From positions 560,501 to 624,500 of the forward strand of contig OY987226.1 in NCBI GenBank assembly GCA_963920705.1: DNA of 64,000 bases, given 5' to 3'. The notes under the pieces were generated by a model, which saw only the letters and a program-made list of their open reading frames with translations, made no database searches and was not told the DNA's origin. The translations under genes were made by a program, and so were the position numbers. Numbering within the stretch: the stretch's first letter is position 1; the number at the start of each line of letters is the position of its first letter. This stretch comes from Odiellus spinosus (lineage: Eukaryota; Arthropoda; Arachnida; Opiliones; Phalangiidae). Below, in pieces: positions 23,380-63,439 of this stretch.

Positions 23380-23407
23380 GATCTCTGAAAAATCGTCGTA
23401 ATTGAAA

Positions 23408-36000: not shown

Positions 36001-37478
36001 AGTAATAAAATTCCCGCGCTTTGCTTTAAAATTAGATAAGAGTGGTTTGTCATTTCGTGGTTTTGATTAGCCCTTGGCTTTGACAAAAGTTTTACCTATT
36101 TACGTGTCAGAAAGAATGAAAATATTAAGACAATTTATGGCCCCGTTTCAATTTAATATATAAAATTGATTTTAACTCTAACAAATAATTCCTATTTTAG
36201 TTCTGCCGCGCGAGGGACATGTCCTCAGGGTTGCCACAGTTCAGGGAAAACAGGAAAATATCAGGGAATTTGAAAATGAGCCAAAAAAACGCGGGGAATT
36301 TCAAGATATTTTAAAAAGTCGGGGAATTTCATGATCTTTCGAGAAACCAAGGAATTGCCATCATTATCCGGGGAAAATATTCTCAGCTGACGGCGTGTCA
36401 GTTCTATAGATTAGAACAAAGATACGCCCGCAGTTTGGCGAACGCGACTATATAAAACAATAAAAGGTTAAAAATTGCGTAGTATTAGCCGAAACGGTCA
36501 GGGAAAATCGTTGGAAAAGGTCAGGGAAAAACCTCGAAAAGTCAGGGAATTTGAATCTGAAAAAACTGTGTCAACCTTTTGTTTTATTTCTATGGGAAAA
36601 TGTAGAGTTCTGATTGGCTAATGGGACAATTTAAGGAAATTGCGATTACGGATGAGGATGGGATCATAACATTGCACGCTGAATCTAAAAATATTAAAAA
36701 TTTAACCATATATTGTAAAATGAACGTATTTTCTTAAATTTTAAATTTCAGATATTTATGGAAAATGTGGGAAGGACGTCGTGTAAGCAGCCTGGTCCTA
36801 AGTTTGGATCTCCCAATCTTGGGCGAAGACGAAAGAAAGAAAAGCAGAGGTCTTCTGGTCGAGTACCTCAAGACTCATATGGGCCATCATAAACTCTACG
36901 TCAGCTATTACATTCTTTGCGAGATGTTCAATTTCGCCAATGTCGTTGGTCAAATGTATCTGATCGACACGTTCCTCGGAGGAGAATTCACCACGTTTGG
37001 TTCCGAGGTCCTAAAGTTCACGGAGACCGATCAAGAGTTTCGTAACGACCCGATGGTCCGGGTTTTCCCACGCATGGCTAAGTGTTCGTTCCACCGATAC
37101 GGGCCTTCCGGTGACGTGCAACGTCACGACGCCTTTTGCATTTTACCCTTGAACATTATTAACGAAAAAATCTACATCTTCTTGTGGTTCTGGTTCATAA
37201 TCTTGGCGGTGTTATCGGGTTTCATATTGGTGTACAGAATCGTTACCGTCGCGTCCCAAAAGGTACGTTCAGCCATGTTGAGGCGAACCGCGAAATTGTC
37301 GGATCGCAGGGCCTTGGATCGCGTCATGAGTAAAGCCGAATTGGGCGATTGGTTCATCATCTACTTGTTGGCGAAGAACTTAGATCCTTTGAACTTCAGA
37401 GACTCTATGAACGATCTCTCTCTCAAATTAACGTCTAGTGAACCTTTGCTCGACAAAGAACGCGAAGCCAATGCTTAA
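26714..37478 (+). CDS. Inx2: Innexin-2-like gap-junction protein, two exons (26714-27093 joined to 36752-37478)
   Basis: The splice AG|GTGAGT to TTTCAG|A restores Arg127 in the conserved run YMPR|YLWKMWEG and gives 368 residues, the usual Innexin-2 length. Four helices are expected near 31-46, 112-127, 176-195 and 266-290. YYQW is at 108-111. Loop cysteines are Cys54/Cys69 (GDPIDCINND and FCWIHSTFS) and Cys238/Cys256 (KCSFHRYGPSGD and CILPLN). IDNNVFQLHYR, KYYQWVCFVLF, EKIYIFLWFWFIIL and GDWFIIYLLAKNLDP are typical of insect Innexin-2, the main epithelial innexin. An in-frame TAG at 26699 fixes the start. It lies about 2.1 kb after another innexin on the same strand. Innexin-2 can form mixed channels with other innexins in insects; pairing with this neighbour is only a possibility. 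Confidence 0.93.
28084..28288. mobile_element. TTAA-flanked MITE, copy 3
   Basis: TTAA at 28084-28087 and 28285-28288 flank AGGGAGAATG and its near reverse complement CATTCTCTCT. The interior AGCTAAGCCTATTTTGATT matches copy 1. With intact TTAA on both sides, this is one of the best copies for defining the family. Confidence 0.7.
30299..30619. mobile_element. 321-bp element with about 110-bp terminal inverted repeats
   Basis: The ends AGCAAGAATCCATTCAGG and CCTGAATGGATTCTCGCT mirror each other, and matching continues through TAAGAATATGGGAG and, after a short gap, CCATCCTCCCAAACTTTGTA and AAGTTCGTCCGC. Flanks read CTACC and ACCAG, so a duplication of ACC is possible. Long arms and little unique centre suggest a foldback-type or MITE element. 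It has no coding capacity; open frames across it are by-products of the arms. Confidence 0.75.
30790..31035. other. GC-richer unexplained segment in the Inx2-like intron
   Basis: Noticeably richer in G and C than its surroundings. On the + strand 30802-31035 is open from a non-ATG start for 77 codons (GPGCRAWMDAFERTEQETR), and part is open on the other strand. I recognise no family and see no clear paired splice sites. It could be a transposon fragment, a regulatory island or an unrecognised exon. Confidence 0.35.
34165..34591. mobile_element. CAGGGTTCGTAC-ended element with internal short repeats
   Basis: The 12-bp ends CAGGGTTCGTAC and GTACGAACCCTG are perfect inverted repeats. Near both ends short repeats with GTCAGGGAATTTGGAAA or GTCAGGGAAA recur. 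Non-coding. The CAGGG start fits hAT-type termini; class by inference. No clean flanking duplication was seen. Confidence 0.75.
35157..35568. repeat. 29-bp tandem repeat (about 14 copies)
   Basis: Units contain GGAACACATTGAAAATATAG followed by a variable GATCTTATA or AAACTTATA. The left part is more variable; the right part carries GGAAGACATTG in three units. Located within the Inx2-like intron. Confidence 0.92.
36226..36581. mobile_element. CAGGGTTGCCACAGTT-ended element with internal short repeats
   Basis: The left end CAGGGTTGCCACAGTTCAGG is matched at the right by AACTGTGTCAACC. Inside, TCAGGGAATTTGAAAA-type words recur (36262, 36541 and others), as in the element at 34165. It ends about 170 bp before exon 2 of the Inx2-like gene. 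Non-coding. Confidence 0.65.
36752..37478 (+). CDS. Inx2: Inx2-like exon 2 (residues 127-368)
   Basis: Begins with A completing Arg127, then YLWKMWEG. It encodes the cytoplasmic loop, third helix, second extracellular loop with Cys238 and Cys256, fourth helix and the C-terminal tail ending LLDKEREANA. The stop TAA is at 37476-37478. The frame extends upstream of the first ATG (36765), as the family alignment requires. Confidence 0.95.
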
Positions 37479-39675
37479 ACGTCATTTCTTTTTTTTAAAT
37501 ACGCGTTGGAAGTTTACGAAACTATCAAATTTAGTGAAAATCTAAAACACTAAGTATAAATCGTAAATTTTTCGTCAAAACGGTATAATTAGAATTATTA
37601 ATCATCAATTAAAATTAATTTAGTACAAATGAGATTTCATTTTCTTACAGTTAACATATTTATTACGCGATACGGCTTATAGAGATGCAAAATTTTATCG
37701 TATACGACTTTCATTTAGTCTTAACATTTCCCCGTGCCAAATATTTTAAATGTAGGGGTTTTTGGCGAATATATTTAGACCACTGCCAATGCAAAGTTCA
37801 ATCAAAATTTTACAAATTCCAATTTAGTGGAGTCTATTTTTATAATATGGTGTATAATATTAATATTTTTTTAATTGCCCTCAAATTTAAGTAGTTTTGG
37901 GTGGTTTTAGATGGTAATTAAATATATATAGATACATATAGTTGAATTTTGTATTCAAAACATTCGTAAGGCCAGTTTTTTTTTTTAAATACCGCGTTAA
38001 ATAAGTCCGAAAATTAATTTTAATGGAATTTAACTCGATTTATTTAATAAATACGTAGTTATAATTCCAGGGACTTTTTAAGAAAATTTCTTTGTAGGGT
38101 GAAGTATGCTTGAGCGCTTAATATCAAACTTAATTTTAATTATTATCCCTAAAATATGATATTTAGTTAAATAAAATCATCTAATAGTTAAATTTAGTTG
38201 AAAAAAAAACTGTATTTGAAAAAGACCACCATTTTGAGTCCTTTTCTAGAGATAAGTGGATACTAGCCAATCAAATCGCGTCTTTTAAAGCAGCTATACA
38301 AACGGCAAACCCTCAAAATATGGCGCCACATTTCATATATAGTAAGAAAAATTATCTAATATCCAGGGAAAAAAACTGTATTTGAAAAAAAAAAATACCA
38401 TTTTTTGAGTCCCTATCTGGAGATAAGTGGATACTAGCCAATCAAATCTGTTCTTTTAAGGCAGCTATACAAGCGCCACATTACCTATATCGATATTTAA
38501 CCGAAAAATATCCAATTTATAGCAAATTACGTGGATTGAACAGATAAAAATTCAAATTTGGTTACTCATGAAGTAATTAACCAATCTTACTTAAGACACG
38601 CGGATGGTTTTTTAACACGAATTACCGTCTAAACATCAAGTTATTGGTGCCATTTTAAATCCAGTTAACAAAACAAACTTTGCCCAAAAGTAAAATTTGA
38701 TTGGCTGGAATATATTATTGTACGTGGAACAAAATGGTGGACGATTGGTGGTTAAAACTCTTGACTTTAAACCCTAATTTTGTCGTAATTAATCCGAGTT
38801 ACAAATATTTTAACTGTAAACAAAATTGGCTTTTGAATCATTTTTTTTTTTTTTTTTTTTCATTTAGGGTCACTTTAAAGTTTACTTTTTTATTATTCTA
38901 AACTCATGATTCATATAGTCTTAAATTTCCATGGGGGGATCAAATCTCATATTACATTGTTCTAAAACGTGAACGAAAGAAAAAGCAAAAACTAATTTAG
39001 ACACGTTTTTCAAAATAAGAGAATATTAGGTTGCGACAAATTCTCGTATTTCAAATTTCTCTGTTGCCACGGTCGCGACACTTTTCATTTCAATAATTAA
39101 AAAAGTCGCTAAATAAAGTTTATAAAATAAAATATCAACAATTAACGAAGTTGTTTAGGCTGGATTTTTTATTATTTTTTTAAACATATGGAATTGCCTT
39201 TTTTTTGTACCGTGACGTATTCCTTATTAATTATGAAATTCGTATATTAATTTAGAAGTAATGATTGCCTTTCATTCCGAGGAAGAGCCTACCCCTTAAA
39301 GCGGCCTATTTAAACTTTATTGGCTCTCTTGAATTGGACTGGCGCTAAAACAAAATTTAAGCCTTGGTTACATTCCTTCAATACGCGTAGAAACATATTT
39401 TTAATTGTTTAAATATATCAGATTTAATAAGTCTATTATGATTTATTTTCACCAATCTGTAATTCTATAAAATGATTACAAATTTTTACTTAAGGTCGAA
39501 CAGGAAGTGACGTCATCAAAAGACTGATTAATAATAATTGTTTCGCGTTTAAATACTGTCTAGAATCATATTACATTAAAATGTGCCTTAAATCGTAACG
39601 CCAAGCTGTAAAATATTACTAATATTAGTAATAATTGTAATAAAATTATTTTAACATAATATATCTGTTTAATTT
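37479..39675. other. Region between Inx2-like gene and the satellite
   Basis: Includes the 3' UTR of the Inx2-like gene. AATAAA-type words lie further down (for example near 38,047), but no cleavage site can be chosen. A tandem duplication (38195-38490) and an AT-rich stretch with an 18-T run near 38,840 are the only other structure seen. Confidence 0.55.
38195..38490. repeat. Tandem duplication of about 166 bp
   Basis: ACTGTATTTGAAAAA, GATAAGTGGATACTAGCCAA, TCAAATC and GCAGCTATACAA occur twice in the same order, about 166 bp apart. The copies differ by several substitutions and small gaps, so the duplication is old. Non-coding. Confidence 0.75.
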
Positions 39676-39950
39676 AAATAATCAAAGATTTTACAAGGGG
39701 TACCCCTTGTAAAAAAAAATAATACACCCCCTGTAAAATATATAATCTAAGAATTTACAAGGGGTACCCCTTGTAAAAAAAAAATAATACACCCCCTGTA
39801 AAATAAATAATCAAAGATTCTACAAGGGATACCCCTTGTAAAATAAAAATAATACACCCCTGTAAAATACATAATCAAAGATTTTACAGGGGGTACCCCT
39901 TGAAAAAAAATAATACACCCCACGTAAAATAAATAATCAAAGATTTTATT
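39676..39950. repeat. Satellite module P: about four 65-bp units with a KpnI-centred palindrome
   Basis: Each unit holds TTTACAAGGGGTACCCCTTG (the palindrome extends to TAAA), then ATAATACACCCCCTGTAAAA and AATAATCAAAGA. The fourth is altered in the palindrome. The same palindrome recurs singly at 40441-40660, 45160-45205, 51908-51965 and 54920-55020, mostly between arrays. Confidence 0.9.
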
Positions 39951-40441
39951 TGCAAAGAGAGTTTTATTTTCAAAGGGCGTGTTATTTTCAAGGGGCGTGT
40001 TATTTTCAAAGGGCGTGTTATTTTCAAGGGGCGTGTTATTTTCAAAGGGCGTGTTATTTTCAAAGGGCGTGTTATTTTCAAAGGGCGTGTTATTAACAAA
40101 GGGCGTGTTATTAACAAAGGGCGTGTTATTAACAAAGGGCGTGTTATTAACAAAGGGCGTGTTATTAACAAAGGGCGTGTTATTAACAAAGGGCGTGTTA
40201 TTAACAAAGGGCGTGTTATTTTCAAAGGGCGTGTTATTTTCAAAGGGCGTGTTATTTTCAAAGGGCGTGTCATTTTCAAAGGGCGTGTTATTTTCAAAGG
40301 GCGTGTTATTTTCAAAGGGCGTGTTATTTTCAAAGGGCGTGTTATTTTCAAAGGGCGTGTTATTTTCAAAGGGCGTGTTATTTTCAAAGGGCGTGTTATT
40401 AACAAAGGGTGCGTTATTTTCAAAGGACGTGTTATTTTCAA
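39950..40441. repeat. Satellite array A1: 18-bp unit TTCAAAGGGCGTGTTATT
   Basis: About 27 copies of an 18-bp unit. A block of seven has AACAAAGGG in place of TTCAAAGGG. Because 18 is a multiple of three, both strands are open for 180 codons (for example KGVLFS and ITRPLK repeats), which is not evidence of a gene. Confidence 0.95.
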
Positions 40442-40660
40442 AAAGGGGTACCCCTTGTAAAAATATCCTAAAAAAAAAATCTAATTTTTTACAAGGGGTA
40501 CCCCTTGTAAAAAATCGAGAATAAAATATTTTTATTTTACAGGGGATGTATTATTTTACAGGGGGTGTATTATTTTTTTGACAAGGGGTACCCCTTGTAA
40601 AATCTTTAATTATTTATTTTACAGGGAGTGTATTATTTTTTTTACAAGGGGTACCCCTTC
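40441..40660. repeat. Palindromic spacer (P) between arrays A1 and D1
   Basis: Four GGGGTACCCC cores at about 40446, 40496, 40586 and 40649, mostly flanked by TTTACAA and TTGTAAA, separated by AT-rich sequence and copies of TTTTACAGGG-GTGTATTATT. It carries fragments of both the P and B modules. Confidence 0.9.
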
Positions 40661-43325
40661 TCAATTTTCTCAATCTCAATTTTCTCAATCTCAATTTTCT
40701 CAGTCTCAATTTTCCCAATCTCAATTTTCCCAATCTCAATTTTCCCAATCTCAATTTTCCCAATCTCAATTTTCTCAATCTCAATCTCAATTTTCTCAAT
40801 CTCAATTTTCTCAATCTCAATTTTCTCAGTCTCAATTTTCTCAATCTCAATTTTCTCAATCTCAATTTTCTCAATCTCAATTTTCTCAATCTCAATTTTC
40901 TCGATCTCAATTTTCTCAATCTCAATTTTCTCAATCTCAATTTTCTCAATCTCAATTTTCTCAATCTCAATTTTCCCAATCTCAATTTTCCCAATCTCAA
41001 TTTTCCCAATCTCAATTTTCCCAATCTCAATTTTCCCAATCTCAATTTTCCCAATCTCAATTTTCTCAATCTCAATCTCAATCTCAATCTCAATTTTCTC
41101 AATCTCAATTTTCTCAATCTCAATTTTCTCGATCTCAATTTTCTCAATCTCAATTTTCTCGATCTCAATTTTCTCGATCTCAATTTTCTCGATCTCAATT
41201 TTCTCAATCTCAATTTTCTCAATCTCAATTTTCTCAATCTCAATTTTCTCGATCTCAATTTTCTCGATCTCAATTTTCTCAATCTCAATTTTCTCGATCT
41301 CAATTTTCTCAATCTCAATTTTCTCGATCTCAATTTTCTCAATCTCAATTTTCTCGATCTCAATTTTCTCAATCTCAATTTTCTCAATCTCAATTTTCTC
41401 AATCTCAATTTTCTCAATCTCAATTTTCTCAATCTCAATTTTCTCAGTCTCAATTTTCTCGATCTCAATTTTCTCGATCTCAATTTTCTCAGTCTCAATT
41501 TTCTCAGTCTCAATTTTCTCAATCTCAATTTTCTCAATCTCAATTTTCTCAATCTCAATTTTCTCAATCTCAATTTTCTCAATCTCAATTTTCTCGATCT
41601 CAATTTTCTCGATCTCAATTTTCTCAATCTCAATTTTCTCGATCTCAATTTTCTCGATCTCAATTTTCTCAATCTCAATTTTCTCAGTCTCAATTTTCTC
41701 AGTCTCAATTTTCTCGATCTCAATTTTCTCAATCTCAATTTTCTCAGTCTCAATTTTCTCAATCTCAATTTTCTCAATCTCAATTTTCTTAATCTCAATT
41801 TTCTCGATCTCAATTTTCTCGATCTCAATTTTCTCGATCTCAATTTTCTCAATCTCAATTTTCTCAATCTCAATTTTCTCGATCTCAATTTTCTCGATCT
41901 CAATTTTCTCAATCTCAATCTCAATCTCAATTTTCTCAATCTCAATTTTCTCAATCTCAATTTTCTCAATCTCAATCTCAATCTCAATTTTCTCAATCTC
42001 AATTTTCTCAATCTCAATCTCAATCTCAATTTTCTCAATCTCAATTTTCTCAATCTCAATTTTCTCAATCTCAATTTTCTCAGTCTCAATTTTCTCAATC
42101 TCAATTTTCTCAGTCTCAATTTTCTCAATCTCAATTTTCTCAATCTCAATTTTCTCAATCTCAATTTTCTCAATCTCAATTTTCTCAATCTCAATTTTCT
42201 CGATCTCAATTTTCTCGATCTCAATTTTCTCGATCTCAATTTTCTCGATCTCAATTTTCTCGATCTCAATTTTTCTCAATCTCAATTTTCTCGATCTCAA
42301 TTTTCTCAATCTCAATTTTCTCAATCTCAATTTTCTCGATCTCAATTTTCTCGATCTCAATTTTCTCAATCTCAATTTTCTCAATCTCAATTTTCTCGAT
42401 CTCAATTTTCTCGATCTCAATTTTCCCAATCTCAATTTTCCCAATCTCAATTTTCCCAATTTCAATTTTCCCAATCTCAATTTTCCCAATTTCAATTTTC
42501 CCAATCTCAATTTTCCCAATCTCAATTTTCCCAATCTCAATTTTCCCAATCTCAATTTTCCCAATCTCAATTTTCCCAATCTCAATTTTCCCAATCTCAA
42601 TTTTCCCAATCTCAATTTTCCCAATCTCAATTTTCCCAATCTCAATTTTCCCAATCTCAATTTTCCCAATCTCAATCTCAATTTTCTCAATCTCAATTTT
42701 CTCAATCTCAATTTTCTCAATCTCAATTTTCCCAATCTCAATTTTGCCAATCTCAATTTTGCCAATCTCAATTTTGCCAATCTCAATTTTGCCAATCTCA
42801 ATTTTGCCAATCTCAATTTTGCCAATCTCAATTTTGCCGATCTATATTTTGCCGATCTCAATTTTGCCAATCTCAATTTTCCCAATCTCAATTTTCCCAA
42901 TCTCAATTTTCCCAATCTCAATTTTCCCAATCTCAATTTTCCCAATCTCAATTTTCCCAATCTCAATTTTCCCAATCTCAATTTTCCCAATCTCAATTTT
43001 CCCAATCTCAATTTTTCCCAATCTCAATTTTTCCCAATCTCAATTTTTCCCAATCTCAATTTTTCCCAATCTCAATTTTCCCAATCTCAATTTTCCCAAT
43101 CTCAATTTTCCCAATCTCAATTTTCCCAATCTCAATTTTCCCAATCTCAATTTTCCCAATCTCAATCTTCTCAATCTTCCCAATCTCAATCTTCTCAATC
43201 TTCCCAATCTCAATCTCAATTTTCTCAATCTCAATTTTCTCAATCTCAATTTTCTCAATCTCAATTTTCTCAATCTCAATTTTCTCAATCTCAATTTTCT
43301 CAATCTCAATTTTCTCAATTTTCTT
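40659..43325. repeat. Satellite array D1: 15-bp unit CTCAATTTTCTCAAT
   Basis: About 175 copies of a 15-bp unit. Variants change TTCTC to TTCCC or TTGCC, and AATCTC to GATCTC or AGTCTC, in local blocks, showing local homogenisation. Shortened or joined units (CTCAATCTCAATCTC) mark slippage. The unit gives open frames in several phases on both strands up to 899 codons (SQFSQ, SISIF, RKLRL); these are artefacts. Confidence 0.97.
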
Positions 43326-43339
43326 AAAAAAAATCAATT

Positions 43340-45160
43340 TTTTTTACAGGGGGTGTATTTATCATTTATTTTTTTTTACAGGGGGTGCATTTATCATTTA
43401 TTTTTTTTTTACAGGGGGTGTATTTATCATTTATTTTTTTTTACAGGGGGTGTATTTATCATTTATTTTTTTACAGGGGGTGTATTTAATATTTTTTTTT
43501 ACAGGGGGTGTATTTATCATTAATTTTTTTACAGGGGGTGTATTTATCATTTATTTTTTTACAGGGGGTGTATTTATCATTTATTTTTTTATAGGGGGTG
43601 TATTTAATATTTTTTTTTACAGGGGGTGTATTTATCATTTATTTTTTTACAGGGGGTGTATTTATCATTTATTTTTTTACAGGGGGTGTATTCATCATTT
43701 GTTGTTTTTACAGGGGGTGTATTTATAATTTTTTTTTACAAGGGGAGTATTTTTCATTAAATTTTTTTACAGGGGGTGTATTTATCATTTATTTTTTTAC
43801 AGGGGGTGTATTTATTATTTATTTTTTACTTAGGGTGTATTTATTATTTATTGTTTTTTTACAGGGGGTGTATTTATCATTTATTTTTTTACAGGGGGTC
43901 TATTTATCATTTATTTTTTTACAGGGGGTGTATTTATCATTTATTTTTTTTACATGGGGTGTGTTTATCATTTATTTTTTTTTACAGGGGGTGTATTTAT
44001 TATTTTTTTACAGGGGGTGTATTTATCATTTATTTTTTTTTACAGGGGGTGCATTTATCATTTATTTTTTTTTACAGGGGTGTATTTATCATTTATTTTT
44101 TTTACAGGGGGTGTATTTATTATTATTTTTTTTTCTACAAGGGGTGTATTTATCATATATTTTTTTTACAGGGGGTGTATTTATCATTTATTTTTTTTCG
44201 GGGGGTGTATTTATCATTTATTTTTTTTACAGGGGGTGTATTTATCATTTATTTTTTTACAGGGGGTGTATTTATCATTTATTTTTTTTACAGGGGGTGT
44301 ATTTATCATTTATTTTTTTTACATGGGGTGTGTTTATCATTTATTTTTTTTAACAGGGGGTGTATTTATTATTTTTTTACAGGGGGTGTATTTATCATTT
44401 ATTTTTTTTTACAGGGGGTGCATTTATCATTTATTTTTTTACAGGGGGTGTATTTATCATTTATTTTTTTTTACAGGGGGTGTATTTATCATATATTTTT
44501 ATTACAGGGGGTGTATTTATCATTTATTTTTTTTTTACAGGGGGTGTATTTATCATTTATTTTTTTTACAGGGGGTGTATTTATCATTTATTTTTTTTAC
44601 AGGGGGTGTATTTATCATTTATTTTTTTTACAGGGGGTGTATTTATCATTTATTTTTTTTACAGGGGGTGTATTTAATATTTTTTTTTTTACAGGGGGTG
44701 TATTTATCATTTATTTTTTTTACAGGGGGTGTATTTAATATTTTTTTTTTTACAGGGGGTGTATTTATCATTTATTTTTTTACAGGGGGTGTATTTATCA
44801 TTTATTTTTTTTACAGGAGGTGTATTTATCATTTATTTTTTTTACAGGGGGTGTATTTATCATTTATTTTTTTACAGCTCGGGGTGTATTTATCATTTAT
44901 TTTTTTTTACAGGGGGTGTATTTATCATTTATTTTTTTACAGGGGGTGTATTTATCATTTATTTTTTTTACAGGGGGTGTATTTATCATTTATTTTTTTA
45001 CAGGGGGTGTATTTATCATTTATTTTTTTTACAGGGGGTGTATTTATCATTTATTTTTTTTTACAGGGGGTGTATTTATCATTTATTTTTTTTACAGGGG
45101 GTGTATTTAATATTTTTTTTTTACAGGGGGTGTATTTATCATTTATTTTTTTACCCCTTG
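43340..45160. repeat. Satellite array B1: about 32-bp unit with TTTACAGGGGGTGTATTTAT
   Basis: Several dozen units: a T-tract of variable length, ACAGGGGGTGTATTTATC, then ATTTA and T-tract. The unit length drifts by one to three bases through the T-run, so open frames across it change phase. The T-run followed by ACAG resembles a 3' splice site in every unit. Confidence 0.95.
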
Positions 45161-45205
45161 TAAAAAAAATCATTTATTATTTTTTACAAGGGTTACCCCT
45201 TTTTT
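45160..45205. repeat. Degenerate P palindrome between arrays B1 and A2
   Basis: ACCCCTTGTAAAA at the left and TTTTTACAAGGGTTACCCC at the right keep the P elements in an altered order, one with GGGTTACCCC. It marks the boundary between two array types, as at the other junctions. Confidence 0.8.
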
Positions 45206-48200
45206 ATTTTCAAAGGGAGTTTTATTTTCAAAGCGTGTTTTATTTTCAAAGGGAGTTTTATTTTCAAAGGGAGTTGTATTTTCAAAGGGAGTTTTATTTT
45301 CAAAGGGAGTTTTATTTTCAAAGGGAGTTTTTTTTTCAAAGGGAGTTTTACTTTCTAAGGGAGTTTTATTTTCAAAGGGAGTTTTATTTTCAAAGGGAGT
45401 TTTATTTTCAAAGGGAGTTTTATTTTCAAAGGGAGTTTTATTTTCAAAGGGAGTTTTATTTTCAAAGGGAGTTTTATTTTCAAAGGGAGTTTTATTTTCA
45501 AAGCGTGTTTTATTTTCAAAGGGAGTTTTATTTTCAAAGGGAGTTTTATTTTCAAAGGGAGTTGTATTTTCAAAGGGAGTTGTATTTTCAAAGGGAGTTT
45601 TATTTTCAAAGGGAGTTTTATTTTCAAAGGGAGTTTTATTTTCAAAGGGAGTTTTATTTTCAAAGGGAGTTTTATTTTCAAAGGGAGTTTTATTTTCAAA
45701 GGGACTTTTATTTTCAAAGGGAGTTTTATTTTCAAAGGGACTTTTATTTTCAAAGGGAGTTTTATTTTCAAAGGGAGTTTTTATTTTCAAAGGGAGTTTT
45801 ATTTTCAAAGGGAGTTTTATTTTCAAAGGGAGTTTTTATTTTCAAAGGGAGTTTTATTTTCAAAGGGAGTTTTATTTTCAAAAGGAGTTTTATTTTCAAA
45901 GGGAGTTTTATTTTCAAAGGGAGTTTTATTTTCAAAGGGAGTTTTATTTTCAAAGGGAGTTTTATTTTCAAAGGGAGTTTTATTTTCAAAGGGAGTTTTA
46001 TTTTCAAAGCGTGTTTTATTTTCAAAGGGAGTTTTATTTTCAAAGGGAGTTTTATTTTCAAAGGGAGTTGTATTTTCAAAGGGAGTTGTATTTTCAAAGG
46101 GAGTTTTATTTTCAAAGGGAGTTTTATTTTCAAAGGGAGTTTTATTTTCAAAGGGAGTTTTATTTTCAAAGGGAGTTTTATTTTCAAAGGGACTTTTATT
46201 TTCAAAGGGAGTTTTATTTTCAAAGGGAGTTTTATTTTCAAAGGGAGTTTTATTTTCAAAGGGAGTTTTTATTTTCAAAGGGAGTTTTATTTTCAAAGGG
46301 AGTTTTATTTTCAAAGGGAGTTTTTATTTTCAAAGGGAGTTTTATTTTCAAAGGGAGTTTTATTTTCAAAGGAGTTTTATTTTCAAAGGAGTTTTATTTT
46401 CAAAGGGAGTTTTATTTTCAAAGGGAGTTTTATTTTCAAAGGGAGTTTTATTTTCAAAGGGAGTTTTATTTTCAAAGGGAGTTTTATTTTCAAAGGGAGT
46501 TTTATTTTCAAAAGGAGTTTTATTTTCAAAGGGAGTTTTATTTTCAAAGGGAGTTTTATTTTCAAAGGGAGTTTTTTTTTCAAAGGGAGTTTTACTTTCA
46601 AAGGGAGTTTTATTTTCAAAGGGAGTTTTATTTTCAAAGGGAGTTTTATTTTCAAAGGGAGTTTTATTTTCAAAGCGTGTTTTATTTTCAAAGGAGTTTT
46701 ATTTTCAAAGGGAGTTTTATTTTCAAAAGGAGTTTTATTTTCAAAGGGAGTTTTATTTTCAAATTGAGTTTTATTTTCAAAGGGAGTTTTATTTTCAAAG
46801 GGAGTTTTATTTTCAAAGGGACTTTTATTTTCAAAGGGAGTTTTATTTTCAAAGGGAGTTTTATTTTCAAAGGGAGTTTTATTTTCAAAGGGAGTTTTTG
46901 TTTTCAAAGGGAGTTTTATTTTCAAAGGGAGTTTTATTTTCAAAGGGAGTTTTTATTTTCAAAGGGAGTTTTATTTTCAAAGGGAGTTTTATTTTCAAAG
47001 GAGTTTTATTTTCAAAGGGAGTTTTATTTTCAAAGGGAGTTTTATTTTCAAAGGAAGTTTTATTTTCAAAGGGAGTTTTATTTTCAAAAGGAGTTTTATT
47101 TTCAAAGGGAGTTTTATTTTCAAAGGGAGTTTTATTTTCAAAGGGAGTTTTATTTTCAAAGGGAGTTTTATTTTCAAAAGGAGTTTTATTTTCAAAGGGA
47201 GTTTTATTTTCAAAGGGAGTTTTATTTTCAAAGGAATTTTTTTTTCAAAGGGAGTTTTACTTTCAAAGGGAGTTTTATTTTCAAAGGGAGTTTTATTTTC
47301 AAAGGGAGTTTTATTTTCAAAGGGAGTTTTATTTTCAAAGCGTGTTTTATTTTCAAAGGAGTTTTATTTTCAAAGGGAGTTTTATTTTCAAAAGGAGTTT
47401 TATTTTCAAAGGGAGTTTTATTATCAAAGGGAGTTTTATTTTCAAAGGGAGTTTTATTTTCAAAGGAAGTTTTATTTTCAAAGGGAGTTTTATTTTCAAA
47501 AGGAGTTTTATTTTCAAAGGGAGTTTTATTTTCAAAGGGAGTTTTATTTTCAAAGGGAGTTTTATTTTCAAAGCGTGTTTTATTTTCAAAGGGAGTTTTA
47601 TTTTCAAAGGGAGTTTTATTTTCAAAGGGAGTTTTATTTTCAAAGGGAGTTTTATTTTCAAAGGGAGTTTTATTTTCAAAGCGTGTTTTATTTTCAAAGG
47701 GAGTTTTATTTTCAAAGGGAGTTTTATTTTCAAAAGGAGTTTTATTTTCAAAGGGAGTTTTATTTTCAAAGGGAGTTTTATTTTCAAAGGGAGTTTTATT
47801 TTCAAAGGAAGTTTTATTTTCAAAGGGAGTTTTATTTTCAAAAGGAGTTTTATTTTCAAAGGGAGTTTTATTTTCAAAGGGAGTTTTATTTTCAAAGGAA
47901 GTTTTATTTTCAAAGGGAGTTTTATTTTCAAAAGGAGTTTTATTTTCAAAGGGAGTTTTATTTTCAAAGGGAGTTTTATTTTCAAAGGGAGTTTTATTTT
48001 CAAAGGGAGTTTTATTTTCAAAAGGATTTTTATTTTCAAAGGGAGTTTTATTTTCAAAGGGAGTTTTATTTTCAAAGGGAGTTTTTTTTCAAAGGGAGTT
48101 TTACTTTCAAAGGGAGTTTTATTTTCAAAGGGAGTTTTATTTTCAAAGGGAGTTTTATTTTCAAAGGGAGTTTTATTTTCAAAGCGTGATTTATTTTCAA

Positions 48201-48640
48201 AGGAGTTTTATTTTCAAAGGGAGTTTTATTTTCAAAGGGAGTTTTATTTTAAAAGCGTGTTTTATTTTCAAAGGGAGTTTTATTTTCAAAGGGAGTTTTA
48301 TTTTCAAAAGGAGTTTTATTTTCAAAGGGAGTTTTATTTTCAAAGGGAGTTTTATTTTCAAAGGAAGTTTTATTTTCAAAGGGAGTTTTATTTTCAAAAG
48401 GAGTTTTATTTTCAAAGGGAGTTTTATTTTCAAAGGGAGTTTTATTTTCAAAGGGAGTTTTATTTTCAAAGGGAGTTTTATTTTCAAAGGGAGTTTTATT
48501 TTCAAAGGGAGTTTTATTTTCAAAGGGAGTTTTATTTTCAAAGGGAGTTTTATTTTCAAAGGGAGTTTTATTTTCAAAGGGAGTTTTATTTTCAAAGGGA
48601 GTTTTATTTTCAAAGGGAGTTTTATTTTCAAAGGGAGTTT
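45205..48640. repeat. Satellite array A2: 18-bp unit TTTTCAAAGGGAGTTTTA
   Basis: About 190 copies. Variants include AGCGTG, AAAGGAGT (17 bp), AAAAGGAGT and TTTTTATT (19 bp). They recur in fixed order, so multi-unit blocks of several hundred bp are themselves repeated (compare 45.45-45.85, 45.98-46.35 and 46.6-47.0 kb). Long open frames (up to 984 codons, SFIFKG and YFQREF) arise from the 18-bp period. Confidence 0.97.
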
Positions 48641-49330
48641 TATTTATTATTTATTTTTTTTTACAGGGGGTGTATGTATTATTTATTTTTTTACAGGGGG
48701 TGTATTTATTATTTATTTTTTTTACAGTGGGTGTATTTATTATTTTTTTTACAGGGGGTGTATTTATTATTTATTTTTTACAGGGGGTGTATTTATCATT
48801 TATTTTTTTACAGGGGATGTATTTATTATTTATGTTTTTTTACAGGGGGTGTATTTATTATTTATTTTTTTAACAGGGGGTGTATTTTTATTTTTTTTTT
48901 ACAGGGGGTGTATTTATTATTTATTTTTTTTACAGTGGGTGTATTTATTATTTATTTTTTTATAGGGGGTGTATTCATTATTTATTTTTTTTTACAGGGG
49001 GTGTATTTATTAATTATTTTTTTTACAGGGGGTGTATTTATTATTTATTTTTTAACAGGGGGTGTATTTATTATTATTTTTTTACAGGGGGTGTATTTAT
49101 TATTTATTTTTTTTTACAGTGGGTGTATTCATTATTTATATTTTTTTACAGGGGGTGTATTTATTATTTATTTTTTTTTACAGGGGGTGTATTTATTATT
49201 TATTTTTTTAACAGGGGGTGTATTTTTTTTTTTTTTTTACAGGGGGTGTATTTATTATTTATTTTTCTTACAGGGGGTGTATTTATTATTATTTTTTTTA
49301 CAGGGGGTGTATTTATTATTTATTTTTTTA
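48640..49330. repeat. Satellite array B2: about 32-bp unit, + orientation
   Basis: About 21 units like array B1 but mostly with TTTATTATTTA in place of TTTATCATTTA. Variants TACAGTGGG and TATAGGGG occur. It ends at the symmetry point of the satellite block. Confidence 0.95.
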
Positions 49331-49480
49331 CACCCACTGTAAAAAAAAATAAATAATGAATACACCCCCTGTAAAAAAATAAATAATAAATACACCCCCC
49401 TGTAAGAAAAAAATAATAAATACACCCCCTGTAAAAAAAATTAATAAATACACCCCCTGTAAAAAAAATAAATAATAAAT
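49331..49480. repeat. Satellite array B3: B unit in inverted orientation
   Basis: About five units reading ACACCCCCTGTAAAAAAA then ATAATAAAT, the reverse complement of array B2. The switch from + to - orientation occurs within a few bases of 49,330. Confidence 0.95.
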
Positions 49481-51908
49481 AAAACTCCCTTTGAAAATAA
49501 AACTCCCTTTGAAAATAAAACTCCCTTTGAAAATAAAACTCCCTTTGAAAATAAAACTCCCTTTGAAAATAAAACTCCTTTTGAAAATAAAACTCCTTTT
49601 GAAAATAAAACTCCCTTTGAAAATAAAACTCCTTTTGAAAATAAAACTCCCTTTCAAAATAAAACTCCCTTTGAAAATAAAACTCCCTTTGAAAAAAAAA
49701 AACTCCCTTTGAAAATAAAACTCCCTTTGAAAAAAAAACTCTCTTTGAAAAAAAAAAACTCCCTTTGAATAAAAACTCCCTTTGAAAATAAAACTCCCTT
49801 TGAAAATAAAACTCCCTTTGAAAAAAAACTCCCTTTGAAAATAAAACTCCCTTTAAAAATAAAACTCCCTTTGAAAATAAAACTCCCTTTGAAAATAAAA
49901 CTCCCTTTGAAAATAAAACTCCCTTTGAAAATAAAACTCCCTTTGAAAATAAAACTCCCTTTGAAAAAAAAACTCCCTTTGAAAATAAAACTCCCTTTGA
50001 AAAAAAAAACTCTCTTTGAAAAAAAAACTCTCTTTGAAAAAAAAAAAAAACTCCCTTTGAAAAAAAAAACTCCCTTTGAAAATAAAACTCCCTTTGAAAA
50101 TAAAACTCCCTTTGAAAATAAAACTCCCTTTGAAAATAAAACTCCCTTTGAAAATAAAACTCCCTTTGAAAAAAAAACTCCCTTTGAAAATAAAACTCCC
50201 TTTATAAATACAACTCCCTTTGTAAATACAACTCCCTTTGAAAATAAAACTCCATTTGAAAATAAAACTCCCTTTGAAAATAAAACTCCCTTTGAAAATA
50301 AAACTCCCTTTGAAAATAAAACTCCCTTTGAAAATAAAACTCCTTTTGAAAATAAAACTCCCTTTGAAAATAAAACTCCCTTTGAAAATAAAACACCCTT
50401 TTAAAATAAAACTCCCTTTGAAAATAAAACTCCCTTTGAAAATAAAACTCCCTTTGAAAATAAAACTCCCTTTGAAAATAAAACCCCCTTTGAAAATAAA
50501 ACTCCTTTTGAAAATAAAACTCCTTTTGAAAATAAAACTCCCTTTGAAAATAAAACTCCCTTTGAAAATAAAACCCCCTTTGAAAATAAAACTCCTTTTG
50601 AAAATAAAACTCCTTTTGAAAATAAAACTCCCTTTGAAAATAAAACTCCCTTTGAAAATAAAACTCCCTTTGAAAATAAAACTCCCTTTGAAAATAAAAC
50701 TCCCTTTGAAAATAAAACTCCCTTTGAAAATAAAACTCCCTTTGAAAATAAAACCCCCTTTGAAAATAAAATTCCCTTTGAAAATAAAACTCCCTTTGAA
50801 AATAAAACTCCCTTTGAAAATAAAACTCCCTTTGAAAATAAAACTCCCTTTGAAAATAAAACTCCCTTTGAAAATAAAACTCCCTTTGAAAATAAAACTC
50901 CCTTTGAAAATAAAACTCCCTTTGAAAATAAAACTCCCTTTGAAAATAAAACTCCCTTTGAAAATAAAACTCCCTTTGAAAATAAAACTCCCTTTGAAAA
51001 TAAAACTCCCTTTGAAAATAAAACCCCCTTTGAAAATAAAACTCCTTTTGAAAATAAAACTCCTTTTGAAAATAAAACTCCTTTTGAAAATAAAACTCCC
51101 TTTGAAAATAAAACTCCCTTTGAAAATAAAACTCCCTTTGAAAATAAAACTCCCTTTGAAAATAAAACTCCCTTTGAAAATAAAACTCCCTTTGAAAATA
51201 AAATTCCCTTTGAAAATAAAATTCCCTTTGAAAATAAAACTCCCTTTGAAAATAAAACTCCCTTTGAAAATAAAACTCCCTTTGAAAATAAAACTCCCTT
51301 TGAAAATAAAACTCCCTTTGAAAATAAAACTCCCTTTGAAAAAAAAATTCCTTTGAAAATAAAACTCCCTTTGAAAAAAAAAACTCCCTTTGAAAATAAA
51401 ACTCCCTTTGAAAAAAAAAACTCCCTTTGAAAATAAAACTCCCTTTGAAAATAAAACTCCCTTTGAAAATAAAACTCCCTTTGAAAATAAAACTCCCTTT
51501 GAAAATAAAACTCCCTTTGAAAATAAAACTCCCTTTGAAAATAAAACTCCCTTTGAAAATAAAACTCCCTTTGAAAATAAATCTCCCTTTGAAAATAAAA
51601 CTCCCTTTGAAAATAAAACTCCCTTTGAAAATAAAACTCCCTTTGAAAATAAAACTCCCTTTGAAAATAAAACTCCCTTTGAAAATAAAACACGCTTTGA
51701 AAATAAAACTCCCTTTGAAAATAAAACTCCCTTTGAAAAAAAAAACTCCCTTTGAAAATAAAACTCCCTTTGAAAAAAAAACTCCCTTTGAAAATAAAAC
51801 TCCCTTTGAAAATAAAACTCCCTTTGAAAATAAAACTCCCTTTGAAAATAAAACACGCTTTGAAAATAAAACTCCCTTTGAAAATAAAACTACCTTTGAA
51901 AATAAAAA
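49480..51908. repeat. Satellite array A3: 18-bp unit in inverted orientation
   Basis: About 135 units of AAAACTCCCTTTGAAAAT, the reverse complement of array A2. Variants (CTCCTTTTG, CCCCCTTTG, ATTCCCTTTG, CACGCTTTG) again occur in repeated order, and CACGCTTTG is the complement of the AAAGCGTG variant of A2. Runs of A vary in length near the left end. Confidence 0.97.
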
Positions 51909-51965
51909 GGGGTACCCCTTGTAAAAAATAATAATTGATTTTTTTTACAAGGGGTACCCCTTTGA
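51908..51965. repeat. P palindromes between arrays A3 and D2
   Basis: Two GGGGTACCCC cores with TTGTAAAAA and TTTTTACAA flanks, separated by AATAATTGATT. It repeats the boundary arrangement seen at 40.45-40.66 kb. Confidence 0.9.
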
Positions 51966-52930
51966 AATTTGGAAAATTGAGATTTTTGAAATTTGGAAAA
52001 TTGAGATTTTTGAAATTTGGAAAATTGAGATTTTTGAAATTTGGAAAATTGAGATTTTTGAAATTTGGAAAATTGAGATTTTTGAAATTTGGAAAATTGA
52101 GATTTTTGAAATTTGGAAAATTGAGATTTTTGAAATTTGGAAAATTGAGATTTTTAAAATTTGGAAAATTGAGATTTTTGAAATTTGTAAAATTGAGATT
52201 TTTGAAATTTGTAAAATTGAGATTTTTGAAATTTGGAAAATTGAGATTTTTGAAATTTGGAAAATTGAGATTTTTGAAATTTGGAAAATTGAGATTTTTG
52301 AAATTTGGAAAATTGAGATTTTTGAAATTTGGAAAATTGAGATTTTTGAAATTTGGAAAATTGAGATTTTTGAGATTTGGGAAAAATCGAGATTTGGGAA
52401 AAATCGAGATTTGGGAAAAATCGAGATTTGGGAAAAATCGAGATTTGGGAAAAATCGAGATTTGGGAAAAATCGAGATTTGGGAAAAATCGAGATTTGGG
52501 AAAATCGAGATTTGGGAAAATCGAGATTTGGGAAAATCGAGATTTGGGAAAATCGAGATTTGGGAAAATCGAGATTTGGGAAAATCGAGATTGGGAAAAT
52601 CGAGATTTGGGAAAATCGAGATTTGGGAAAATCGAGATTTGGGAAAATCGAGATTTGGGATAATCGAGATTTGGGAAAATCGAGATTTGGGAAAATCGAG
52701 ATTTGGGAAAATCGAGATTTGGGAAAATCGAGATTTGGGAAAATCGAGATTTGGGAAAATCGAGATTGGGAAAATCGAGATTTTGGGAAAATCGAGATTG
52801 GGAAAAATCGAGATTGGGAAAATCGAGATTGGGAAAATCGAGATTGGGAAAATCGAGATTTTGGGAAAATCGAGATTGGGAAAATCGAGATTGGAAAAAT
52901 TGAGATTGTGAAAATTGAGATTTAAAAAAT
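51961..52930. repeat. Satellite array D2: unit shortening from 24 to 17 to 16 to 15 bp
   Basis: About 17 units of a 24-bp repeat (TTGAAATTTGGAAAATTGAG plus ATTT), then units GGGAAAAATCGAGATTT (17 bp), GGGAAAATCGAGATTT (16 bp) and GGGAAAATCGAGATT (15 bp). The core AAAATTGAGATT is the reverse complement of array D1's AATCTCAATTTT, so D2 is D-type in inverted orientation. Confidence 0.95.
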
Positions 52931-54448
52931 AAATGATTAATTCACCCTCTGTAAAAAAAAATAAATGATAAATACACCCCCTGTAAAAAAAAATAAATGA
53001 TAAATACACCCCCTGTAAAAAAAAATAAATGATAAATACACCCCCTGTAAAAAAAAATAAATGATAAATACACCCCCTGTAAAAAATTAAATAAATGATA
53101 AATACACCCCCTGTAAAAAAAAATAAATGATAAATACACCCCCTGTAAAAAAAAATAAATGATAAATACACCCCCTGTAAAAAAAATAAATGATAAATAC
53201 ACCCCCTGTAAAAAAAAAATAAATGATAAATACACCCCCTGTAAAAAATTAAATAATAAATACACCCCCTGTAAAAAACATAAATAATAAATACACCACC
53301 TGTAAAAAAAATAAATGATAAATACACCCCCTGTAAAAAAAATAAATGATAAATACACCTCCTGTAAAAAAAATAAATGATAAATACACCCCCTGTAAAA
53401 AAATAAATGATAAATACACCCCCTGTAAAAAAAAAATATTAAATACACCCCCTGTAAAAAAAATAAATGATAAATACACCCCCTGTAAAAAAAATAAATG
53501 ATAAATACACCTCCTGTAAAAAAAATAAATGATAAATACACCCCCTGTAAAAAAATAAATGATAAATACACCCCCTGTAAAAAAAAAAATATTAAATACA
53601 CCCCCTGTAAAAAAAATAAATGATAAATACACCCCCTGTAAAAAAAATAAATGATAAATACACCCCCTGTAAAAAAAAAAATGATAAATACACCCCCTGT
53701 AAAAAAAATAAATGATAAATACACCCCCTGTAAAAAAAATAAATGATAAATACACCCCCTGTAAAAAAAAATAAATGATAAATACACCCCCTGTAATAAA
53801 AATATATGATAAATACACCCCCTGTAAAAAAAAAATAAATGATAAATACACCCCCTGTAAAAAAATAAATGATAAATGCACCCCCTGTAAAAAAAAATAA
53901 ATGATAAATACACCCCCTGTAAAAAAAATAAATGATAAATACACCCCCTGTAAAAAATTAAATAATAAATACACCCCCTGTAAAAAACATAAATAATAAA
54001 TACACCACCTGTAAAAAAAATAAATGATAAATACACCCCCTGTAAAAAAAATAAATGATAAATACACCCCCTGTAAAAAAAAATAAATGATAAATACACC
54101 CCCTGTAAAAAAAATAAATGATAAATACACCCCCTGTAAAAAATTAAATAATAAATACACCCCCTGTAAAAAACATAAATAATAAATACACCACCTGTAA
54201 AAAAAATAAATGATAAATACACCCCCTGTAAAAAAAATAAATGATAAATACACCCCCTGTAAAAAAAAATAAATGATAAATACACCCCCTGTAAAAAAAA
54301 TAAATGATAAATACACCCCCTGTAAAAAATTAAATAATAAATACACCCCCTGTAAAAAACATAAATAATAAATACACCACCTGTAAAAAAAATAAATGAT
54401 AAATACACCCCCTGTAAAAAATTAAATAATAAATACACCCCCTGTAAA
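52930..54448. repeat. Satellite array B4: B unit in inverted orientation
   Basis: About 48 units of ATAAATACACCCCCTGTAAA plus an A-run, the reverse complement of array B1. Variants with CACCACC, CACCTCC and AAAAATTAAATAATA recur in order, showing that multi-unit blocks (about 190 bp at 53.9-54.4 kb) are themselves amplified. Confidence 0.95.
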
Positions 54449-54781
54449 AATTGAGATTGGGAAAATTGAGATTGGGAAAATTGAGATTGGGAAAATTGAG
54501 ATTGGGAAAATTGAGATTGGGAAAATTGAGATTGGGAAAATTGAGATTGGGAAAATTGAGATTGGGAAAATTGAGATTGGGAAAATTGAGATTGGGAAAA
54601 TTGAGATTGGGAAAATTGAGATTTTGAAAATTGAGATTTTGAAAATTGAGATTGGGAAAATTGAGATTGGGAAAATTGAGATTGGGAAAATTGAGATTGG
54701 GAAAATTGAGATCGAGAAAATTGTGATCGAGAAAATTGAGTCTGAGAAAATTGAGATTGAGAAAATTGAGATTGAGAAAAT
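54446..54781. repeat. Satellite array D3: 15-bp unit ATTGGGAAAATTGAG
   Basis: About 22 units, the reverse complement of the TTTTCCCAATCTCAA variant in D1. The right end grades into GATCGAGAAAATTGAG and GATTGAGAAAATTGAG, which are complements of other D1 variants. Confidence 0.95.
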
Positions 54782-54784
54782 TTG

Positions 54785-54915
54785 TAAAAAAAATAAATAA
54801 TAAATACACCCCCTGTAAAAAAAAATAAAAAATACACCCCCTGTAAATAAAAATAAATAATAAATACACCCCCTGTAAAAAAAAAAAAAATAAATACACC
54901 CCCTCTAAAAAAATC
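54785..54915. repeat. Satellite array B5: four inverted B units
   Basis: Four copies of AATACACCCCCTGTAAA with an A-run of variable length. They lie between D3 and the last P palindromes. Confidence 0.92.
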
Positions 54916-55150
54916 AATTATTATATTTTTACAAGGGGTACCTCTTGTAAAATCTTTGATTATTTATTTTACAGGGGGTGTATTATTTTTTTTACAAGGG
55001 GTACCCCTTGTAAAATCTTTGATTATTTATTTTACAGGGGGTGTATTATTTTTTTTAATAAAACACGCGTTGAAAATAAAACACGCTTGAAAATAAAACA
55101 GGATTTGAAAATAAAACACGCTTGAAAATAAAACACGCTTGAAAATAAAA
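54915..55150. repeat. Right edge of the satellite: P units and decayed A units
   Basis: TTTACAAGGGGTACC occurs twice (one copy with GGGGTACCTC), each followed by TTGTAAAATCTTTGATTATT and TTTTACAGGGGGTGTATTATT, nearly the reverse complement of the 39.7-kb units. Then five to six short units like AAAATAAAACACGCTTG, a worn A module. Unique sequence resumes after about 55,150. Confidence 0.9.
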
Positions 55151-56885
55151 CACTCTAGTGTCGGCTGCCTCATTTTTAACTAGCCATATTTAAGGCGTAC
55201 AATTGAAAAACCTATATTCAAAATGAAATTTCAATATTGCAGAATTATTTTTGATATAAATCCTATATGTGGTTGTCTTGACAGTTAATATATAACATCT
55301 TGACGGCGAATACGTGACTATTAGATTAAATGTTTCGAGAAATGGCATTGACTGACCTAGTTTTTCGAAAATTTTCCCTACACACGTGGGAGGTCTTGCA
55401 TTGATTGAGTGTGTGCTTGCGCCTGTTCGCCCGGGTGACTGTTGGTTCGTATTTGTTGGAGGAAATCCTTTTAAAAAGTAAATCTTGAAGAAAATGCGAT
55501 GTTTTTCGTGATACCATTAACCATTTGACTTCGTATTGATTGGAAAAAGTGACCTGGCCATTAAAAATGACATTAACGCGCCCTTAACGACTGGAGGCCT
55601 ATGACGTAAAAGTATTTGGTTTTCGCAACCTGTTCGTCATTAAAAATACGTAGATATAAAGATTTAACGACGCTTTTTAATCTCTCGGGGGTGTTGACTT
55701 AAGTTTTGCAAGTCAGGATCGCTTCGTACCCCAGATACAATAAACACTTATGTATATTAGATTAAAAATTTTGAAGAAATGGAAACCTTTGTCGATTCAA
55801 ATTGTTCGTTGGGATAATTTTCTAGGATATAAGTAGCCATTTTGGGATGAAAACGATGGCTATAGGAGGTAGTATCATTGTTTTAATTCATTTTGAGATA
55901 AATGATAATGGTTTAAACAAATGAAATTAGTAAAAGATAGACTATAGAATACTATAGTCTACTTATCCTATAGATTAATGTCAGTTATTTACTACTAAAA
56001 ATTAGGTAATTATTAGATCATAAGGAATAATTATTTGTCTATAATGAAATCTTATTTTTGTATAATTTCTAATTCCTGTTTTCTCGCAATTTGGCCTAAT
56101 TAACGTAGCTTTAATTAACTCACCATAACACGAGTTTATTTTAAATATACGCCACGCAAACCCTAGTTAAAATAAACTTTGTAATTGTGATACAGTTCTA
56201 TATAATTAATAAAAATTACGCAAAGTTTTTGCTTAGTTTAAAGTAGAAATATTGTTTTCAGAGCGTACTTTTTTGTTGAAATGGAAAAGTAATATTAATA
56301 AATGAATTTAAATCCAAGTCCCTTTCAGCTCCCTCATTTTGCTGCACTAAATTAAGTATAATACTAAATTGTCTAATATATTTTCGAAAAAATGACTTAA
56401 AACTATGTTCCAGTTAAAAACTCCAACGGTATTTAGATAAGCGATGATAATATTTAATCTTACGACAAGTGTTTAGGCAAATACTCAAAATTGATAATTT
56501 CTAAGGTTTTTTTTTTTCATTTATCGGTTTAGAATATTACTGTATATCTTAACTGATGTCGAGTTTGCAAAAACGCGTATATCCAATTTCCATAAACAAC
56601 TTGATAAGGTGTAGATAAGAAAGGAACGTTTTATAGGATTAAAAGACACCCTGGGAGAAGTTTTAGATACTTTGGATTCGTATATATATTACATTACAAT
56701 ACGAAAAAGAATAGCGATAATTTACAAGTTTTTAAGTTCGCGGTATCTATTGAAAATATTCGAGTGTTTAGTGATAAACCTGTCTTTCTTTATTATCAAA
56801 AGTTATATCTGGAGTGGCAGCTTATACGCGTGCAATTTACGTATATTCTTGTAAAATAAATTTTGATTTTATTCGGAAAATACGC

Positions 56886-62493: not shown

Positions 62494-62813
62494 CAGAAGC
62501 CGATGAAACCCTCCTTTGAAGTCTACTACTCGAATGTTCCATATAGCGCTCCTCTCTGTATGGGTAAAATTCACAATTTTCCGAGTTAGAAGGGGTCCTA
62601 CTTCATACCCCCTGTCTACGGAAAATTGGAAATTCTCTCTCTCCACAAACGACGACGTTTTTGGACGAACTCCGAGGCTCGACGAACTCCCGCTCCGAAA
62701 ACATCTACCGTTAGGAGGCGTACGAATCGCGCCTTTTGAGAAAAACCCATACAGAGAGGGGTAGACAAGACCCGGGAGTAATAGACTTCACAGGAGGGTT
62801 TCATCGGCTTCTG
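62494..62813. mobile_element. CAGAAG-ended MITE, copy 2
   Basis: Same ends and interior as copy 1 at 9261-9597. Flanks ATGGTAC (62487-62493) and ATGGTTC (62814-62820) look like a 7-bp target duplication with one change. Two copies about 53 kb apart show the family is repeated in this genome. Confidence 0.8.
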
Positions 62814-63439
62814 ATGGTTCGGAAAACGTATCCAAGAGTGGTTCTTTCTTTATAGTTAATATTTTTCCAACTTAAGCGCGTCTTGTTTTCAGTATAATTT
62901 CACTGATATAATTTATTTTTTAATAAAAATGTTTAGTAAAGGCCCTGGATGGTTTTATAATTTAATACAAGGCGTTCTTCTGTTGACACTTTTCATTTTA
63001 AATCTAGTTTGCGGCGTGATTTGAACGTTTAAGAAATATTCTTAAGATATTTGCGAACACGAATATACACGCTTGCCTTTGTAAACCGGATGTTAAATAA
63101 TAATTTTCCTAATATTTAATTAAGTTGGTAATGACCGTGAAACAACGCGATCCTAAAGAGATTAATTTCCAACGAATATTCAACAATTTTATACACATAC
63201 TCAAAAAACAGACGTTTTTTAAGAAAGATCATTATCAAAAAGGGCAGATTTACGGTTGCGCTAATTAGTTTAAATGATACGGGCAACGAACTCTAAATGA
63301 CAAGACCGAGAAGAAGAAAAAAATTCAATTGAAAGTAGATTGTGACAAAAACAATTTTTTTTAAAGATAGCTCTCTCTCTTTTTTTTTTGTTTCAAGGAT
63401 ATCGAGTTAAAATCTTTATAAAATAGAAAATGGATTTTT

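Follow-up and report, generated by a model that had tools for sequence, protein, structure and literature searches.

Macro-dyad symmetries have been described for the satellites TmSat1 and TmSat2 of Tribolium madens, and also in T. freemani and T. castaneum, where units of ~110-704 bp form megabase (peri)centromeric arrays whose inversion sites are ~98% conserved (PMC13081366). The accessible portion of that report, of 2026, gives such arrays as documented solely in the genus Tribolium and proposes a role for them in the centromere (PMC13081366). A second point of comparison is Tetris of Drosophila virilis, presented in the available excerpt of its description as having arm domains around a middle domain and 8-10-bp target-site duplications (PMC4079207). 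Here we analyse a 15.5-kb composite satellite of the arachnid Odiellus spinosus, contained in a window of 64,000 nucleotides of contig OY987226.1 (C2:560,501-624,500), in which four types of short-repeat module, A, B, D and P, follow one another in near-mirror order on either side of a central turn. This locus probably represents one copy of a composite satellite cassette, mirror-symmetric and non-coding, that is dispersed in the genome, having been copied between chromosome ends, and whose arms were here remodelled and homogenised.

The cassette core reads D-(linker with P)-A-B><B-A-(linker with P)-D, where B><B marks the turn, and occurs with the same fused junctions in unrelated flanks. Loci were found by searching the genome (443 Mb, 286 contigs) with fusion probes that match single arms, so that a mirrored partner was not selected for. 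The A/B fusion was recovered with ≤2 mismatches at 10 places, on C2, C4, C5, C6 and C11, its 32 bp being exact at the window (both arms), C4 (both arms), C5 and C11, and the P/A fusion was recovered at nine places. A looser A/B probe gave 12 places, adding C2:0.86, C7:20.74 and C13:2.25 Mb; loci with fused junctions number 13 in total, ten of them mapped. A arrays flank the B><B turn on both sides at six of these ten (the window, C2:1.45, C4:25.07, C5:22.58, C6:23.74 and C11:23.48 Mb), and the five beyond the window have D on the outer side of each A; at C11 two B units and P intervene on the left. Three further loci have a turn with A on a single side (C2:3.34, C3:28.83 and C11:20.34 Mb, the right arm of the last being covered for ~3.5 kb). 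The linker is present, whole or in part, in 15 of 17 cassettes, a set from which C4+@9206 (same array, split), C2_3.34M+@2010 and C6+@292 (both A2-like), C11-@1243 (where the flank truncates an A array that has no linker) and the two C2_0.21M rows were left out. Extra direct cassette copies occur in one arm at C6 and at C11:23.48 Mb, and C2:0.86 Mb is a further cassette candidate, since a B turn lies ~0.15 kb from its A/B fusion, at C2:859,347. The flanks fetched have no unique sequence in common, sharing dispersed repeats and a 22-bp A-like array. The cassette junctions are of common descent, several of the loci are mirrored and the lengths of their arrays have changed. A genome search for the same module order had been proposed in an initial annotation of this DNA, and the core does recur, on C2, C4, C5, C6 and C11. 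P-spacer-P by itself was rejected as a marker of the cassette, as its 46 matches comprised seven with a D fusion and 39 general P stretches (judged by eye).

In the window, back-to-back short-repeat arrays fill 39,675-55,153, with array borders and unit types taken from Tandem Repeats Finder (TRF) and order and orientation from motif maps, and the module order put forward in the initial annotation was confirmed on both sides. Outward from the turn the left arm (9.66 kb) runs B1, A, P, B2, D, P(B), A2, P(B), and the right arm (5.8 kb), in inverted orientation, B1, A, P, D, B2, D, B3, P(B), A2, in agreement with the turn near 49,330 and the arms of ~9.6 and 5.8 kb originally given. The match in order that had been claimed holds, except that the left arm has no D between P and B2 and that the outermost P/B pieces do not mirror, since those at 54,919-55,056 are oriented as those at 40,442-40,658 and those at 39,675-39,945 are unpaired on the right. 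Units are 15-64 bp long and of several types, and their subtypes (TTATT versus TCATT for B, GGGAG versus GGGCGTG for A) also match up across the mirror. The four types are not unrelated, as had been supposed: B, P and A units have in common a T-run, then (A)CA, then a G-run. The longest common subsequence (LCS) of module letters between the arms was 7, a value reached by 918 of 20,000 shuffles, and when unit subtypes were included the observed LCS was reached by 106 of 20,000. Letter order by itself is poor evidence of a mirror, whereas the evidence at the level of bases is strong.

The 32-bp A/B1 fusion has an exact copy in each arm, and a linker of P-spacer-P fused to A is present in both, the right one keeping its D fusion and the left one being without D and without half of the first P. 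The B2 arrays hold a 514-bp block on the left and, inverted, a 482-bp block on the right (Table 1) in which 480 of 480 aligned bases are identical, with one gap of 30 bp, one of 2 bp and four of 1 bp; cutting the left block at TACAG gave 18 pieces, two of them end fragments, of which 10 were distinct. These outer B arrays also bear variants private to the locus in inverted orientation: one B2 unit has exactly two matches in the 443 Mb, at window positions 44,482 (+) and 53,785 (-), genome repeat counts, this one included, being lower bounds, and its sole one-mismatch match lies at 44,146, in the left B2 array too. Containment of B2 40-mers was 0.59 between the window arms versus ≤0.22 to six other B2 arrays, and GC skew, in the A as well as the B arrays, flips sign at the turn. 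The inner B1 arms have no common exact match of ≥40 bp (the longest is 34 bp), nor was one found between the D24 and D16 arrays of the right arm and the left D, and the A and D15 arrays, being so uniform, do not inform the comparison of arms. Whole-array alignment scores were discarded, because they failed to separate pairs of loci (the left B2 aligned to the 3.3-kb B2 array at C2:3.34 Mb with a score of 1,245, higher than the 1,183 for the two window arms), and private k-mers and the mismatch-free block were used instead.

The exact fusion, the common linker, the identical block and the private unit support the argument of the initial annotation that the sides did not expand independently but are homologous in inverted orientation. 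That the arms have been remodelled is likewise supported, the A arrays measuring 3.44 kb on the left versus 2.43 kb on the right and D having been lost beside the left linker; unequal exchange, which had been named as the cause, may account for this.

The window turn is an imperfect dyad with 61-bp arms, five mismatches and a 5-nt loop. Its 135-nt centre, folded as DNA, gave -53.2 kcal/mol versus a shuffle mean of -14.45, a low energy that any such inverted repeat would reach and that is no demonstration of extrusion in the cell; the arms might extrude, block replication or be fragile, as the initial annotation had conjectured. A TACA-N5-TGTA dyad sits at the turns of the window, C4, C6 and C11; the proposition that turns always fall at this dyad or at P was not upheld, several unit phases being seen among the matches listed (by eye). 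Genome-wide, the B head-to-head pattern had 329 forward matches versus 4 in the control, where one B turn can yield more than one match, and those among the matches listed lie at C1:19.3-34.1 Mb, C2:0.6-34.2 Mb and in the first part of C3.

Several results count against a mirrored cassette with a single origin and with exchange between its copies. The sequences of the eight turns examined differ and do not demonstrate a single ancestral turn, so that either the ancestral turn has eroded or inversion occurred more than once. Because the turns among the matches listed fall at several unit phases, fold-back at one fixed dyad is not upheld. Three of the 13 loci (C2:0.86, C7:20.74 and C13:2.25 Mb) lie outside the mapping, and one of the ten mapped, C2:0.21 Mb, is without the core in the 3 kb read. 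Excess likeness between arms is clear only in B2 of the window and, more weakly, in B1 of C11 (0.38 versus ≤0.24), and the arm pairs of C5, C6, C11:20.34 Mb and C4 show no clear excess over other loci. No informative match directly showing interchromosomal exchange was found among the copies, the long C5/C11 matches being of low information: an exact match of 516 bp between C5 and C11:20.34 Mb, and one of 503 bp within C5, from arm to arm, were set aside as support for exchange, since both are made of nearly uniform 17-18-bp repeats.

All 11 cassette loci on C2-C6 and C11 lie ≤3.6 Mb from a contig end, a limit that was set post hoc and that defines end zones of ~20-30% of these contigs; the C7 and C13 loci stand outside this count. 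Arrays of (TTAGG)n are present at the right ends of C1-C6 and C11, and the cassette-proximal end bears TTAGG on C3, C4, C5, C6 and C11; no telomere repeat was seen at the cassette-proximal end of C2. The left end of C1 (L058, C1:1-300) consists of 5-bp TGACC repeats, unlike the TTAGG of the right ends. Also on C1, at 2.385-2.407 Mb (L014-L016), a P/B array of >20 kb keeps a single orientation, and the recurrence of irregular spacings in it suggests a higher-order repeat. Elsewhere a tRNA-like sequence, GGGATTCGAACCC, adjoins a P/B array (L013, ~7470-7560) and is perhaps a tRNA-derived repeat (by eye), and just past the C6 cassette (L041, from ~6860) there is a GC-rich repetitive stretch that by eye resembles repeat-rich coding sequence.

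On the reading of a cassette dispersed between chromosome ends, the mirror would go back to the self-inversion of an ancestral cassette. Fold-back template switching at a short dyad is the probable route, TACA-N5-TGTA in the B unit and the P palindrome being candidates for that dyad. From one chromosome end to another the mirrored unit might then have travelled through ectopic recombination or break-induced replication, and not by means of a transposase, and unequal exchange and slippage would have altered the lengths of arrays and deleted some pieces. The identity of the B2 blocks could stem from events between the paired arms, either conversion or an inverted duplication of later date. Such a cassette codes for nothing and its role would be structural, its paired inverted arrays recombining and perhaps forming hairpins. 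As a wider proposition, we put forward tentatively, as a possibility that we rate below even, that a transposase-free mirror cassette, self-inverted from several short satellites, spreads as a unit between non-homologous ends and keeps its symmetry by exchange between its own arms.

Among the alternatives, a foldback-type non-autonomous transposon with terminal inverted repeats (TIRs), having arms of tandem repeats and a transposase supplied in trans, fares best and is nevertheless improbable. It would explain why inverted tandem-repeat arms, which may or may not be terminal to an element, are dispersed in unrelated flanks, and elements with such arms seeded satellites in D. virilis, according to the excerpt on Tetris (PMC4079207). 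Neither the window nor C4 has a target-site duplication: the best candidate at the window is 7 bp, lies away from the edges and was reached by 85 of 500 random pairs, and at C4 there was none. Furthermore, the outer ends of the window and C4 copies, the two covered by the edge-to-edge comparison, differ, no coding sequence beyond repeat-derived frames was seen in the arrays, and no element or transposase was assignable to the copies. An interpretation of the P/B units at the two edges as TIRs was abandoned, P/B arrays being frequent elsewhere and often of a single orientation.

A somewhat poorer candidate is local inverted duplication of a composite satellite at the window only, followed by remodelling, which would yield private variants and an identical inverted block common to both arms. 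The ancestral palindrome or inverted duplication first suggested for this DNA stands insofar as the arms are inverted homologues; restricted to this locus it is too narrow, since five other mapped loci have the same fusions and a B><B turn flanked by A on either side. A local inverted duplication may, for its part, be the source of the recent B2 block. That one arm is an assembly fold-back of the other is very unlikely, even though satellite arrays are prone to misassembly: an artefact predicts greatest likeness near the turn, whereas here the inner arms differ in sequence, the arms differ in length and modules, the identical block lies >4 kb out, and mirrored cores with different turns exist at several loci. 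Chance ordering of independently expanded common units can be dismissed, for although the units are abundant (the P palindrome has 3,753 exact copies in the genome, besides the head-to-head B matches) and letter order is weak, the arms share private variants, an identical block and junctions fused at the same base.

The coordinates of the arrays are collected in Table 1. Upstream of them, matches to innexin (PF00876) were found in three of the five window open reading frames (ORFs) tested, which lie in a row, as three genes or exons, at 23402-24568, 26702-27097 and 36738-37478, the exon at 36,738-37,478 ending ~2.2 kb before the first array. Long ORFs within the arrays were rejected as genes, being frames of the repeats (by eye), and scanning the window against Rfam at gathering scores, and for tRNAs, gave no match. 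The window also contains, near proline-rich ORFs, a 31-bp array of 18 copies with 98% matches (18012-18574) and a 24-bp array of 30 copies (19101-19818). A dispersed repeat of ~340 bp is present at 9258-9599 and 62491-62815 (89% alike), with a copy in the C6 flank (L041) that is 95.6% alike.

Table 1. Arrays, junctions and blocks of the composite satellite (window positions).
Feature	Position	Strand	Basis
Outermost left P/B pieces, 64-bp unit, B inverted, no right-side partner	39675..39945	-	TRF, motif map
A2 array, 18-bp GGGCGTG type	39946..40441	+	TRF, motif map, skew
P palindromes with B units	40442..40658	+	TRF, motif map
D array, 15-bp	40659..43324	+	TRF, motif map, skew
B2 array, TCATT type, 31-bp	43337..45152	+	TRF, motif map
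Left copy of inverted identical block; private unit at 44482	44364..44877	+	Alignment, genome search
Left linker: half P, spacer, P fused to A; D lost	45153..45203	+	Linker comparison
A array, 18-bp GGGAG type	45204..48645	+	TRF, motif map
B1 array, TTATT type; starts with 32-bp A/B fusion	48646..49333	+	TRF, fusion probe, motif map
Central dyad loop (turn)	49334..49338	.	Dyad search, folding
B1 array, inverted	49339..49481	-	TRF, motif map
A array, inverted	49482..51906	-	TRF, motif map
Right linker: P, spacer, P; fused to A and D	51907..51964	-	Linker comparison
D array, 24-bp form	51965..52371	-	TRF, motif map
D array, 16-bp form	52372..52923	-	TRF, motif map
B2 array, TCATT type, inverted	52924..54446	-	TRF, motif map
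Right copy of inverted identical block; private unit at 53785	53452..53933	-	Alignment, genome search
D array, 15-bp form, inverted	54447..54782	-	TRF, motif map
B3 array, short, TTATT type	54786..54913	-	TRF, motif map
P palindromes with B units, orientation same as 40442-40658	54919..55056	+	TRF, motif map
A2-like array, 17-bp, inverted	55057..55153	-	TRF

Strand switches are contained in the satellite arrays of humans and apes, to our knowledge without a fixed mirrored order of several satellite types, and the satellite arrays described here likewise change orientation. The telomere repeat of Tribolium is TCAGG, whereas here it is TTAGG. In the open-access literature searched, as far as the matching texts extend, macro-dyad satellites were described for Tribolium alone, the other match being a mention in a reference list, and for foldback, array-inversion, composite-satellite, mirror and subtelomere topics no matching description appeared among the open-access matches listed. 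Like Tetris, as its excerpt presents it, the cassette has long inverted arms with tandem repeats, no coding capacity and a link to satellite arrays; unlike Tetris, it has no 8-10-bp target-site duplication at the window or C4, and no arm and middle domains of that kind were found. Judged against the accessible account of the Tribolium macro-dyads, it resembles them in involving more than one satellite with strand switches that produce inverted subarrays of several kb, in its conserved transition zones (here the A/B fusion and the linker) and in being a cassette of fixed frame and variable repeat number. It differs in that its inversion sites are variable where those of Tribolium are highly conserved, in that a 15.5-kb block beside an innexin gene and loci near chromosome ends replace megabase (peri)centromeric arrays, and in its short units of several types, in mirrored order at single loci. 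From its sequence, the cassette thus appears to work like the Tribolium macro-dyads in frame and transitions without being a member of that class, because neither the conservation of its inversion sites nor its location agrees.

Within this cassette, junctions are conserved but turns are variable, and a mirrored multi-satellite cassette near telomeric ends, outside Tribolium, suggests that a centromere is not needed for such symmetry to originate and spread. If the more speculative reading of a transposase-free mirror cassette is true, it would represent a macro-dyad satellite outside Tribolium, near telomeres, in which the dyad frame and not the unit sequence is inherited. Locus-private variants common to both arms provide markers, usable in long-read population data, for exchange between inverted arms and for copying between chromosome ends.

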